Positions 14,357 to 18,104 of a stretch of DNA of 64,000 nucleotides are shown here, piece by piece. The notes under the pieces are model-generated. The model was not told the origin of the DNA and did not search any database. It saw nothing but the letters and a program-made list of their open reading frames with translations. A program made the translations under genes and the position numbers. Source of the DNA: an uncultured Kangiella sp. (GTDB lineage: Bacteria; Pseudomonadota; Gammaproteobacteria; Enterobacterales; Kangiellaceae); contig CANNDL010000004.1 of assembly GCA_947503435.1 (NCBI GenBank), positions 62,001-126,000 of the forward strand, read 5' to 3'. Position 1 is the first letter of the stretch. Each line of letters begins with the position of its first letter.

Positions 14357-14857
14357 ATGCCGAAAATAAGTTTAATCGTGGCAATGGCCTCTAATCGTGT
14401 TATCGGCAAAGGCAATCAAATGCCTTGGCATTTACCGGCAGATCTAAAACATTTCAAAGCAGTAACTCTAGGTAAGCCAGTGGTTATGGGGCGTAAAACC
14501 CATGAATCAATTGGAATGGTTTTACCGGGTCGCGAAAATATTATTATCAGCCGTGATGAAAATTACGCCTCTGATTTTTATAACGATAAATGCCAAACGG
14601 TGACTAGTTTAGAGCAAGCATTACTAACTGCCGGTGAGGTTGAAGAAGTTATGATCATTGGTGGTGCAAATATCTATCAGCAAATGATCGATAAAGCCGA
14701 CACACTTTATTTAACTTTTATCGACTTTGAGACCGAAGGCGACGCACACTTCCCAGATTGGACGCATCTAGAATGGCAAGAAGTGTCTCGTGAACAGTAT
14801 AAAGCTGATGAGAAAAACCCCTACGATCTAGAATTTGTTACTTTGGCAAGGAAATAA
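14357..14857 (+). CDS. folA: Dihydrofolate reductase
   Basis: 166 residues. It reduces dihydrofolate to tetrahydrofolate with NADPH. The frame is open upstream into thyA, but the ATG at 14357 is chosen because MPKISLIVAMASNRVIGKGNQMPW is the normal DHFR start and a GAGGG ribosome-binding site precedes it by 7 bases. PWHLPADLKHFKAVTLGKPVVMGRKTHESIG and the IIGGANIYQQ loop are typical. Its 3' end overlaps the convergent hydrolase gene by 20 bases. Confidence 0.96.
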   Translation: MPKISLIVAMASNRVIGKGNQMPWHLPADLKHFKAVTLGKPVVMGRKTHESIGMVLPGRENIIISRDENYASDFYNDKCQTVTSLEQALLTAGEVEEVMIIGGANIYQQMIDKADTLYLTFIDFETEGDAHFPDWTHLEWQEVSREQYKADEKNPYDLEFVTLARK

Positions 14858-15866
14858 ACTTCTTAACAGCATTTGCAAATTCGTTTGGCGCGCACCAAGG
14901 ATCGCCATGACCACAGTCTTTATCAAGAACCAACAACTCTGCATTCGCTAGCTTTGCAAAATTCAATGCAGGCTCCGGTGTTACAACCCGGTCATCCGCC
15001 CCAATTATAATTAAAAACTTAGCTTTAATATGTTTAACGGCAAGCTCCATATTGTTATCGAAATCGCGTGCAATATTGTGGCTCAACATTGCTTCTGTTT
15101 GCCTTTGATGATCCCAGGTTGATAAATTGGATAAGCTCATGGATTTACTTCTAGTTACAATGGTTTCTAGAATTTTTTCTCTTGGAATATCTTCTTCGAG
15201 CTTTGTGGGTACTAGTACAGTCATTGACATTCCATTCAGCGCTTCGAGAGCTTCGGTACACTGACACTCTCTATATAAATGAAGTAATCGATTGCGGGAA
15301 TTCCATGCGGCGATATCAAAACTAGCAAACCTTGGACTTCCGATAGCAGCAACAATTTTGTTAGTAAAGTTAGGATATCTTACAGCCCATTCAAACGCCT
15401 GCATCGCTCCCATTGATAAACCGACAATGGCATATAAAGACTTAATATTTAGAGTTTCGGTAAGTAACCTATGCTGACTATCTACCATATCGGAAATAGT
15501 TATTTGCGGATAATTTTCACCAAGTTGTTTTTTATTATTGGAAGGGGAGCTGGAAACACTGTTAGCTAAGGAGTCGACAATGATTACAAAATATTCATCA
15601 GGATTAATTAGGTTCTCAGAAGCCATGCCAGATTGACTTTCAGAAGTTCCCCTGAACCAAGTAGGGATTAATATAGCATTTGATCTGTCGGCATTAAGTT
15701 TTCCAAATGTCCTGTATCCGATATGACATGGAGTTAAATTTTGGCCATTAGCTAATTTGCATTCGTCGAATTTAGCAAACTTCTGTTCAGACCCGAATAC
15801 AATGGCTGATAGGAATAATAGCCCTAAGATGAATATAGTCAGAAATGATTTTAAACGAGTATTCAT
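14838..15866 (-). CDS. Exported alpha/beta hydrolase, MetX (homoserine acetyltransferase)-like
   Basis: 342 residues. The N-terminus is a signal peptide or membrane anchor (KSFLTIFILGLLFLSAIVFGSE), unusual for MetX enzymes, which are cytoplasmic. The fold matches the homoserine O-acetyltransferase family: the nucleophile elbow GLSMGAMQAFEWAVRYP, the acid in IIGADDRVVTPEPA and the His in DKDCGHGDPWC. Four Cys residues in the mature part fit an oxidising periplasm. Because of the export signal it probably does not make O-acetylhomoserine; an envelope or secreted acyl hydrolase or transferase is more likely. Substrate unknown. Confidence 0.8.
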   Translation of the reverse strand: MNTRLKSFLTIFILGLLFLSAIVFGSEQKFAKFDECKLANGQNLTPCHIGYRTFGKLNADRSNAILIPTWFRGTSESQSGMASENLINPDEYFVIIVDSLANSVSSSPSNNKKQLGENYPQITISDMVDSQHRLLTETLNIKSLYAIVGLSMGAMQAFEWAVRYPNFTNKIVAAIGSPRFASFDIAAWNSRNRLLHLYRECQCTEALEALNGMSMTVLVPTKLEEDIPREKILETIVTRSKSMSLSNLSTWDHQRQTEAMLSHNIARDFDNNMELAVKHIKAKFLIIIGADDRVVTPEPALNFAKLANAELLVLDKDCGHGDPWCAPNEFANAVKKFISLPK

Positions 15867-16057: not shown

Positions 16058-16378
16058 ATGATCATAACTACAACACCAAATGTTGAAGGTCGCGAAATAC
16101 AAGATTATAAAGGCGTAGTTGTCGGTGAAGCAATTTTAGGCGCTAATATTATTAAAGATTTTTTTGCAGGAATTCGAGATATTGTCGGTGGCCGCTCTGG
16201 TGCTTATGAAGATGAGCTTGCCAAAGCTAGGAAGGTAGCTTTTGAAGAGTTAGAGCAGCATGCCCGAAGAGTAGGCGCCAACGCTATTGTCGGCGTCGAT
16301 CTAGATTACGAAGTAATCGGTCAAAATGGTTCAATGATGATGGTTAGTGTTTCGGGGACGGCTGTAAATATAATATAA
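16058..16378 (+). CDS. ybjQ: YbjQ family protein (UPF0145)
   Basis: 106 residues, the normal family length. Signatures are [25 protein letters not shown], the [15 protein letters not shown] loop and [15 protein letters not shown]. The family forms pentamers and was once described as heavy-metal-binding; its real role is not established. A GGGGAAC ribosome-binding site lies just before the ATG. Its stop codon TAA (16376-16378) coincides with the edge of the integron attC site that follows, so the cassette is inserted exactly at the end of this gene without harming it. Confidence 0.93.
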
Positions 16379-16444
16379 CGCCGCACTCTGCGGAAATTTG
16401 GGAACGTCAGCGAGCAAATTTTCCGTATCAGCGTCTTGTTATGT
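16373..16444 (-). other. Integron-type attC recombination site
   Basis: 72 bases. Read on the minus strand it starts with the R'' box ACATAAC followed by AAGACGC and ends with GCGGCG-TTATAT (R' box). TAACAA at the beginning and GCGTTA at the end are the canonical top-strand ends of attC sites. The interior is an imperfect palindrome: CGGAAAATTTG against CAAATTTCCG with one bulged base, the unpaired part being about 12 bases. The orientation assigns it to the minus-strand gene upstream, whose stop codon TAA (16441-16439) lies inside the R'' box, as is usual for gene cassettes. Confidence 0.85.
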
Positions 16445-17479
16445 TCTATCTTCATTTGCGCCGATTGACTTTAATGTGAATTCACTTTGGCTTTCGTCGA
16501 CTAATGCGTAAATTTTTTCAGTTGCTATATCCGCCAAAATTGCATCTTCTAGCCGCGAAAGAACATCATTAAGATATTTGTAATTAACTATCAGTACTCG
16601 CTCTGCACAATGCCCAAAACTTCTTTTTATTGTGTCTAAGTCTGGGGCGTATCGCCTTTCCCATTCTTTACCGACAAGCACTTCATCCAGAGCAACTAGT
16701 CTCTGAGAAAGCCCCGGATTGCTAGCCAAAAACTCTTCTGCTAAAGAATCGGCGAAACCTTGTAGTTGCGGCCCAGGGCTCTCATTCAGAATCACTGCTT
16801 CACATAAGTCAGAAACGTCATCTAAATCTTCTGCCTCTGTAAAATGATCTAATTGTAAGTCAGATTTTATTACTCTCAGGTCAGCCGTTGTTACCAATAT
16901 TGGACATACAAAATCAATATACCTGCCAGAAGACCATGTATACTCTAAGGCATGCTGATAAGCATTTTTAAGTAGAACGGGCATTCCATATCTTAGCTGG
17001 AAAACACCATGCCTTGCCCCATCAGTGTTTCCTCCACCATTATTCATAAGCTCAACACCAGATACACAATAGCCAATCTCCTTTTCAAACTCCCAAAGTT
17101 CGTGACCTTGAAGTCGTACAGGGGCGAGATCTTCTGTTGAGTGAACAAGTCCTATAGACATCGTGTCACTTGGAAATGGGGAGAATATCCAAGTTGTGCC
17201 TGCTTGACGAAATTTACATTCAATGAGTGCATCCAACACGAAAAGTCGATCACCCGAGTCTAAACATTTGTGAGCCCTTAGATCTATCGAAAACTCTTTA
17301 AAGTCTCCATTTTCGTTCGGTCTCAAATAGGGGTACTCACCAAATATTGAATAACCTTTCTTATTTAAGATATTTGAAGTTACATATTCTAGTGGCAGAC
17401 CAGTTTTAAGAAAGCCATTTTTCCATTTCGTATTAGACAATCTCTTTCCTTAATTTGAGGGAGGCACCGAAAACATAAC
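16379..17479 (-). mobile_element. Solitary integron gene cassette (one gene plus attC)
   Basis: A cassette of about 1.1 kb. The 3' boundary is the attC at 16373-16444. The 5' boundary is GTTATGT on the minus strand (plus-strand ACATAAC at 17473-17479, with an overlapping second copy at 17478-17484). If the cassette were excised and closed, G+TTATGT would restore an R' box fully complementary to its own R'' box ACATAAC, as the integron mechanism predicts. No integrase gene or further attC is in the window, so this looks like insertion at a secondary chromosomal site, precisely after ybjQ. Confidence 0.8.
16439..17440 (-). CDS. Cassette-borne PD-(D/E)XK nuclease-like protein, function unknown
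   Basis: 333 residues. The start is a TTG, supported by an excellent ribosome-binding site (AAGGA, 6 bases upstream); no in-frame ATG lies nearby. The N-terminal third has the layout of a PD-(D/E)XK nuclease fold: Glu18 in a helix (GLPLEYVTSNIL), Asp53 in FSIDLRAHK, and Glu74-x-Lys76 in DALIECKFRQ, followed by TWIFSPFP. The middle (VELMNNGGGNTDG, RHGVFQLRYGMPVLL) and the acidic helical C-terminus are not recognised. A role in defence or nucleic-acid processing is a guess based on the fold and the mobile context. Confidence 0.75.
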   Translation of the reverse strand: MSNTKWKNGFLKTGLPLEYVTSNILNKKGYSIFGEYPYLRPNENGDFKEFSIDLRAHKCLDSGDRLFVLDALIECKFRQAGTTWIFSPFPSDTMSIGLVHSTEDLAPVRLQGHELWEFEKEIGYCVSGVELMNNGGGNTDGARHGVFQLRYGMPVLLKNAYQHALEYTWSSGRYIDFVCPILVTTADLRVIKSDLQLDHFTEAEDLDDVSDLCEAVILNESPGPQLQGFADSLAEEFLASNPGLSQRLVALDEVLVGKEWERRYAPDLDTIKRSFGHCAERVLIVNYKYLNDVLSRLEDAILADIATEKIYALVDESQSEFTLKSIGANEDRT

Positions 17480-17537
17480 ATAACAATATTTGAAAACGAT
17501 TGTAATAGCCTAATTTATAAGAACAAATTTAAGACGG

Positions 17538-18104
17538 TTAAACTTTCTTAGCATGCACTAGATATCTTAATGGCCCACCGGTTTCTATTGTATTAAAAGG
17601 ATAGCAGGTAACTAGGGTCAATTGCTCTTCACCTCTATCATTAATTTGGTCTTGTTCAATGTTGTGCACTTCAGTTGAAGTGATTTCATATTGATGTTTA
17701 TTACCATGCTTATCTTCAACAACAATCGCTTCACCAATTTGTAGGTCTTGTAAGAATTCAAAGTGTGTATCACGGTGGCCGCCAATAATGGTGTAGCCTT
17801 GTTTTTCTGGTGAATCGCTGGAAAGTAATAACCCAGGACCAAAGGCTAGGTTTCGCCCTGAAGCACCAGATAAGACGAGTTGTTCAATATTTTGCGTAGG
17901 CACTGATAATTTGGCAATCGGGAAAGTATCAGCCCACGACCATGGCTTGTGCGGCTTTTGATCGACTAAGGTTTGTTGCCATGCATCTTCTAACATCATT
18001 TGAGCAACTTCTGCTTTAACATGAATATAAGCAGCCTTGCCAAAGGCAAAACTGCTAACGGTTAATAAAAGAATGATTAGGATATTTTTTTTTATAAATT
18101 TCAT
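17538..18104 (-). CDS. Class GN sortase
   Basis: 188 residues. An N-terminal hydrophobic segment (IKKNILIILLLTVSSFAFG) anchors or exports it. The sortase catalytic triad is His110 in IIGGHRDTHF, Cys167 in TLVTCYPF and Arg180 in GGPLRYLVH. Sortases are transpeptidases; in Gram-negative marine bacteria this class is encoded next to a single dedicated substrate, as here. It lies 27 bases downstream of the VIT/vWA protein and is clearly cotranscribed. What it joins its substrate to in a Gram-negative envelope is not established. Confidence 0.93.
   Translation of the reverse strand: MKFIKKNILIILLLTVSSFAFGKAAYIHVKAEVAQMMLEDAWQQTLVDQKPHKPWSWADTFPIAKLSVPTQNIEQLVLSGASGRNLAFGPGLLLSSDSPEKQGYTIIGGHRDTHFEFLQDLQIGEAIVVEDKHGNKHQYEITSTEVHNIEQDQINDRGEEQLTLVTCYPFNTIETGGPLRYLVHAKKV

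Follow-up and report, generated by a model that had tools for sequence, protein, structure and literature searches.

An integron gene cassette on a probable attI site without a neighbouring integrase in an uncultured Kangiella

The usual picture of an integron has a single integrase, a single attI site and a single array of cassettes. Stray cassettes are usually viewed as off-target insertions or as the debris of intI loss and rearrangement. Loot et al. reportedly described in 2024 insertions at attG sites, which place cassettes outside the integron array. Clusters of attC sites lacking an integrase are known as CALINs, as defined in the accessible parts of two reports (PMC9024848, PMC8618304), the second of which proposes three origins for them (PMC8618304). 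In Xanthomonas, according to the accessible part of another study, CALINs occupy conserved chromosomal positions while intI stays at its own locus (PMC12444791). IntegronFinder, by its own account, leaves attI undetected outside class 1. Hence, an attI at loci of this kind would go unseen.

Here, we analyse a locus of an uncultured Kangiella that lies within a window of 64,000 nucleotides, by which we mean the whole stretch of DNA that was analysed. A sequence-only reading had described it as a solitary one-gene cassette parked at a secondary site. The reading we favour, with a probability of about 0.75, is that the locus is an integrase-less integron platform, in which, downstream of a sortase gene, an orphan attI holds one cassette ending at the stop codon of ybjQ. 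Like CALINs and single-attC elements, it is an attC cassette far from an intI that is encoded elsewhere in the genome, but it has one attC and retains a recognisable attI, which sets it apart from the elements described in the accessible literature on CALINs. Since R1, our attC model, finds one attC at the locus (in searches of the window and of the genome), it falls below the definition of a CALIN (at least two attC without intI), and it also lacks the intI beside attI that characterizes a complete integron. It shares with the attG insertions of Loot et al. (2024) a cassette outside the array and G^TT crossovers, whereas its target is attI-like, as judged with a profile of integrase-linked sites. 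It has in common with the Xanthomonas CALINs a fixed chromosomal address away from intI; no attI is noted in the accessible part of that report (PMC12444791), and what is new here is one attI address that is shared by unrelated genes. CALINs, attG insertion and conserved CALIN positions were thus known already, and orphan attI docks with varying cargo would be the new element. In the literature covered, from which subscription papers are mostly absent, we found no account of integrase-less docks that are anchored on attI, spread across a genus and occupied by different genes at a fixed address, which is weak evidence of novelty.

Structure of the cassette

The attC lies on the minus strand at 16373-16444. 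Read on that strand, it opens with ACATAAC at its 5' end (R'', 16444-16438) and closes with GCGTTATAT at its 3' end, where R' is GTTATAT (16373-16379). One minus-strand gene (16439-17440, TTG start) encodes a PD-(D/E)XK nuclease-like protein of 333 residues, and its stop codon falls within R''. The second boundary of the cassette is GTTATGT, at 17479-17473. The crossovers (G^TT) are placed at 17479/17478 at this end and at 16379/16378 at the other, such that the integrated cassette would span 1100 bp on the minus strand (16379-17478); these bounds follow from the R'/R'' geometry and from the end of an attI match at 17476. On circularisation, G16379 would join TTATGT (17478-17473) to give GTTATGT, the complement of R'' at 7/7 positions. 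The letters and coordinates of the attC-like site, the stop codon inside it, the upstream boundary and the exactly complementary R' restored on circularisation had all been pointed out in the sequence-only reading, and they proved correct when read again directly.

On the plus strand, the cassette is preceded by ybjQ (16058-16378; PF01906, 136.2 bits), whose stop codon (16376-16378) overlaps the outer R'. On the other side, next to the attI, lies a minus-strand sortase gene (17538-18104; PF04203, 88.7 bits), which is conserved as a neighbour of the slot. Between sortase gene and cassette is the orphan attI, of type A (17476-17531, minus strand), delimited by profile match and alignment; it ends in GTTATG^TTA and has no intI next to it. 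An Rfam search of the window retrieved tRNA alone.

We then asked if the attC is more than chance. A simple rule on the R''/R' pattern is non-discriminating, with 14 matches in the window versus 5-25 across 20 shuffled windows. Single-strand folding of 16373-16444, which had been suggested as a check, gives no significant support: the z-scores of the two strands are -0.96 and -1.25, and 38/200 and 22/200 shuffles fold equally well or better. We trained a covariance model (R1) on 21 attC from integron arrays of the genus, seven from the same genome and 14 from relatives, which were picked by pattern and by eye; the window attC and the attC of the corresponding slot in a relative (G011) were left out of the training. 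In the 64-kb window the sole match of R1 below E 1 is 16373-16443 (22.6 bits, E 0.0048), and the runner-up has 11.5 bits (E 2.1). The whole genome yields 10 matches at E ≤ 1: the seven array attC, which are training sites, two sites on contig C5, and the window attC, which ranks last (E 0.175). With R1 in place of the attC model proposed earlier (IntegronFinder/HattCI), the covariance check turns out well against the background of the window and weakly at the scale of the genome. Because the window attC is the weakest genome-wide match, taken alone it is moderate evidence for a cassette. The case is carried by the attI at the opposite end and by the cassette-borne homologues of the gene. At the level of sequence, the attC, the 333-residue gene and a homologue near an integron integrase (L133, below) confirm that the locus is a real integron cassette with one gene, as had been proposed.

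The entry point and its counterparts in sister species

By BLAST, the 56 bp from the sortase gene to the cassette resemble a region of relatives that lies upstream of intI, at a distance of about 200-260 bp. The identity is 82% over 57 bp with the integrase-linked region of G004 (E 8e-11) and 80% over 54 bp with that of G011 (E 1.5e-7). The likeness to G005 (79% over 33 bp) and to the site of the same genome (73% over 45 bp) is non-significant alone (E 0.14 each), the distance to intI being the same. We made an attI profile from these four integrase-linked sites, of which those of G005 and of the same genome were included on position and by eye, and none of which comes from the window. It matches the window at 17528-17476 with 22.7 bits (E 6.3e-6, with an nhmmer bias correction of -14.3 bits), the runner-up having E 1.8, and the match ends at 17476 in GTTA, i.e. 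at the crossover. The top score among 5000 composition-matched shuffled flanks is 8.2 bits. The earlier suggestion that the cassette was parked at an arbitrary secondary site is thus probably wrong. A putative sigma-70 promoter read by eye in the attI (TTGTTC-16-TACAAT) is not supported by a promoter scan, which flags nothing there.

The genome also has an integron of its own, which is missing from the sequence-only reading. Its sole integron integrase above the cut-off is at C3:584743-585687 (TIGR02249, 409 bits, an open frame of 324 aa) and adjoins a type A attI and seven attC (L038, C3:585885-589028). Contig C4, to which the window belongs, has no TIGR02249 match at E ≤ 0.001.

We compared the address of the cassette across the genus. 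Genes close to the ybjQ of the window (88-92% identity) occur in G004, G011, G013 and G016. The order folA-ybjQ-slot-sortase is conserved in the last three, and G008 has folA-slot-sortase without ybjQ; sortase orthologues flank the slot in G008, G011, G013 and G016. G004 was left out of the slot comparison, since it keeps ybjQ (89%) and its sortase gene was not found. The window adds one gene between folA and ybjQ (14838-15866), which encodes an alpha/beta-hydrolase and has no counterpart there in G011, G013 and G016.

The slots hold genes of 333 aa in the window, 149 aa in G016, 157 aa in G011, 159 aa in G008 and 147 aa in G013, and the genes of these five species are mutually unrelated (all-against-all blastp, best E 0.65). 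An empty site had been predicted in relatives. It was found in 0/4 comparable relatives, each of which has another gene there. The contrary expectation, an attC-less copy of the same gene at the same place, was not seen either: the slots hold other genes, and the gene is present in 1/369 genomes of the class, its own. The slot gene of G016 (L008 2081-2530) matches PDDEXK_5 with 28 bits (cut-off 26.1), and is thus a second nuclease-like cargo, unrelated by blastp to that of the window.

The attI profile matches the slots of G008 (E 1.1e-7), G011 (E 2.6e-4) and G016 (E 1.4e-3). It has no match in the slot of G013, and nothing below E 1 on 11 further sortase loci of the genus. The attI of the window and of G008 are 90.6% identical over 53 bp, the only stretch of the flank that BLAST aligns, and the core GTTATG^TTA is intact; in G011 the core is altered (GCT for GTT). 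The integron of G016 has a type B attI and its slot a type A one. Because the types differ, the slot attI of G016 is not a fresh copy of the site of its integron. The slot gene of G011 bears an attC (30.9 bits, E 6.5e-5) that ends at the ybjQ stop codon, like that of the window. In the three other slots (G008, G013, G016) no attC is detected with R1, which leaves a full attC in 2/5 species; inspection by eye shows an R'' in G008 that matches the start of the cassette, and in G013 neither attI (profile) nor attC (R1) is found. An integron integrase is retained in three of the five slot species, namely that of the window (genome G000), G011 and G016. We also considered CGTTTTC, found in the slot attI of the window, G008 and G011, versus CGAATTC in the four integrase-linked sites, as a mark of a slot lineage, and dropped it because an orphan attI of G017 (L145) also has CGTTTTC.

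Orphan attI and dispersed attC across the genus

The genus sample comprises 20 genomes, several of them fragmented (up to 330 contigs), such that some attI may only look orphan. The best 150 candidates per genome were scored, and the counts are therefore lower bounds. An integrase above the cut-off occurs in 9/20 genomes. R1 at E ≤ 0.2 finds at least 115 attC in 19/20 genomes, of which 30 are less than 20 kb from a full integrase, 41 are in clusters elsewhere and 44 are alone. Sequence models of the two attI types, R2 (built from 8 sites) and R3 (6 sites), match at least 58 and at least 28 places, respectively, in the 20 genomes at E ≤ 1e-3. All nine loci with a full integrase were recovered among these places. 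The others, at least 77, are away from integrases and spread across 20/20 genomes; eight of these 77 belonged to the training sets. The genome of the window has at least five orphan attI-like places, including the one described here.

Among the matches listed, 85 attC are more than 20 kb from an integrase, and for 52 of them an attI of the same strand lies upstream at no more than 4 kb. The other arrangements add up to 3 (a same-strand attI downstream in 2 cases, one of the opposite strand in 1 and 0), and random placement would put an attI upstream of 0.34 of the 85. With training attI dropped, the counts are 46 versus 2, 1 and 0. If the dispersed attC are counted as 61 loci, they become 36 versus 2, 1 and 0, and 30 versus 2, 1 and 0 with training sites dropped. 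This directional tie of stray cassettes to integrase-less attI-like sites, in the orientation that integrons require, is our strongest result. At the thresholds used and among the matches listed, 33/85 dispersed attC have no upstream attI and 40/77 attI places have no attC within 4 kb.

We compared the extent of homology to integrase-linked regions at 42 loci; 40 belong to the 77 places, and the E values of the other two (L199, L200) are just above the threshold. That 42/42 match is by construction, since they were found through the same likeness, and the informative part is where homology ends. On the cassette side it ends near the crossover (reference 1192-1210). On the other side it ends before intI in 39/42 loci and runs into intI in three (L176, L178, L191), one of which, in G010, also has a broken intI fragment. 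Judged from these sequences, the homology ends and the intI remnants favour decay of complete integrons.

Several places deserve separate mention. In G010 (C1:34733-35336) the intI fragment beside an attI contains an in-frame stop, which suggests a dock in the course of losing its integrase. In G004 (C1:47241-49329) two attI follow each other on one strand and enclose an attC, as if the array of one dock contained another dock. Orphan attI are most numerous in G008 (at least 15 places); the best integrase match of this genome (C40:3-305, 113.6 bits) is a fragment that lies at the end of a contig. In G018 (C5:45636-47224) a truncated integron integrase, which matches positions 1-151 of the profile (175 bits), is separated from an attC by about 1 kb, and no attI was found between the two. 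In the genome of the window, there are two orphan attI of type B (C5:10304-10411, L132, and C5:134046-134151, L131). A small ORF comes after each of them, and then an attC (33.1 and 41 bits); the attC of L131 has a gene of the VF530 family behind it (113.6 bits). For the attI at C5:10304, no orthologous second dock was established in G013.

These results bear unequally on the possible explanations of the locus. It is very improbable that there is no cassette and that a palindrome lies by chance beside a horizontally acquired gene. The weak fold and the weak genome-wide E of the attC are in line with such a coincidence, which is opposed by the attI likeness at one end and the attC at the other, the exact R'/R'' geometry, the stop codon in R'' and the homologues in cassette-like settings of two other phyla. 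We also regard as improbable, though less so, that IntI put the cassette into a chance G^TT beside ybjQ, as a secondary-site (attG) insertion. The cassette is solitary and far from IntI, and attG insertion is a route described in the accessible parts of two reports (PMC12901181, PMC12444791). Yet attG needs a target that is neither attI nor attC, and this target matches the profile of integrase-linked attI over 53 bp; besides, the profile matches at the same place in three sister species that carry other genes. A cassette on an orphan attI dock is thus most likely. The attI likeness, the attC, the cassette geometry, the local absence of an integrase and the unrelated cargo of the sister species are read from the DNA itself. 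The platform would descend from a complete integron after the loss of intI, and the cassette circle would have entered by attC × attI recombination, catalysed in trans by an IntI encoded elsewhere in the genome. The attI region may supply the promoter of the cassette.

The history of such docks might have been different. The locus could be a static relic: intI would have been lost in the distant past, the last cassette would have stayed in place with all exchange at an end, and the differences between species would predate the loss of intI. This is a serious contender, if somewhat doubtful: the homology that stops before intI in 39/42 loci and reaches it in L176, L178 and L191, the changed attI core in the slot of G011 (GCT for GTT) and the lack of a detected attI in G013 speak for it, against the intact GTTATG^TTA core of the window, the 90.6% identity over the 53 bp shared with G008 and the persistence of IntI in G000, G011 and G016 among the five slot species. 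Less likely, in our view, is that the attI module is itself mobile and was copied round the genome with or without a cassette, instead of being left behind by intI loss. The sheer number of places (at least 77 in 20 genomes), the left ends of homology, which recur near reference positions 1075-1079 and 1098, and the tandem attI pair of G004 C1 with an attC between would suit a mobile module, whereas the intI remnants at three loci favour loss. Tentatively, and with a little more confidence than we give the static relic, we suggest that the genus has a distributed integron, in which one integrase serves many scattered attI docks and unrelated genes are swapped at fixed addresses over species time. 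In that case, docks anchored on attI, for which current tools do not search, may account for many solitary cassettes and CALINs elsewhere. The origin of integrase-less cassettes, and a possible continued exchange of them, become directly testable within one genus.

The nuclease-like gene and its relatives

The 333-residue protein has no match in Pfam, PADLOC, NCBIfam or PHROGs (in PADLOC, 0 families at E ≤ 10), and its earlier description as a PD-(D/E)XK-like protein of an unnamed family stands. A search with the single protein found no relatives in collections of genome contigs and viral contigs, nor in the 368 other genomes of the class. We then seeded the search with the protein and a relative from a Leptospira plasmid (26.6% identity, E 1e-6). 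This seed (A2) retrieved eight loci (L133-L140), and no homologue was found with it in viral contigs, nor in phages.

The three closest homologues (58-70% identity) sit in cassette-like settings in other phyla. That of an Epsilonproteobacteria MAG (L133, 70%) is about 0.6 kb from an integron integrase (TIGR02249, 409.3 bits) and is flanked by two strong palindromes (fold z -4.5 and -6.4). The homologue of Winogradskyella (L134, 59%) has palindromes on both sides (fold z -6.6 and -3.3), and the start of that of a Dysgonamonadaceae MAG (L135, 58%) is preceded by GTTAGCCACAATTAA, common to L134. R1, which models the attC of our own genus, finds no attC in L133-L140, where the sites rest on palindromes and reading. 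As far as these sequences tell, one other integron has the gene in a cassette, and it is probably carried by cassettes in three phyla, its own included. The distant relatives are found in settings other than cassettes. The analysis thus adds a nuclease-like family, probably cassette-borne, which is seen in three phyla and is nameless in the four family libraries searched.

Residues E18, D53, E74-x-K76 and Q148 are invariant in 8/8 sequences (the protein and L133-L139); L140 was excluded from this homologue alignment (A3) because its match and its ORF are in different frames. In an AlphaFold model (pLDDT 80.2, pTM 0.83) the invariant residues are placed on H16-27, E47-61, E66-76 and H140-167, with D53 and the E-x-K motif on the core sheet. 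From about residue 220 on, conservation between close and distant homologues is poor. The sequence-only reading had called for a restriction-endonuclease-like core. The predicted fold would fit such a core, and its structural neighbours are weak matches. The closest known systems are PD-(D/E)XK nucleases, namely the Hjc resolvases, a repair endonuclease of P. abyssi, the cOA-activated nuclease of type III CRISPR (6sce), NucC and R.BspD6I; at the level of sequence, no link to a named family was found. Profile matches to PDB sequences comprise only a designed TIM barrel (E 9.8e-5) and an apolipoprotein, and were set aside as spurious. The model and the invariant residues make a metal-dependent nuclease of the PD-(D/E)XK superfamily the most likely cargo. 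A role of this protein in restricting phage or plasmid DNA is guesswork that starts from its family and its setting.

Two of the homologues have neighbours worth recording. Directly downstream of that of the Dysgonamonadaceae MAG lies a HARE-HTH gene with a weak GIY-YIG match (L135 1410-2219), and a distant homologue is followed by genes for TcmP (TIGR04474) and DUF5131 (L139 1246-2876).
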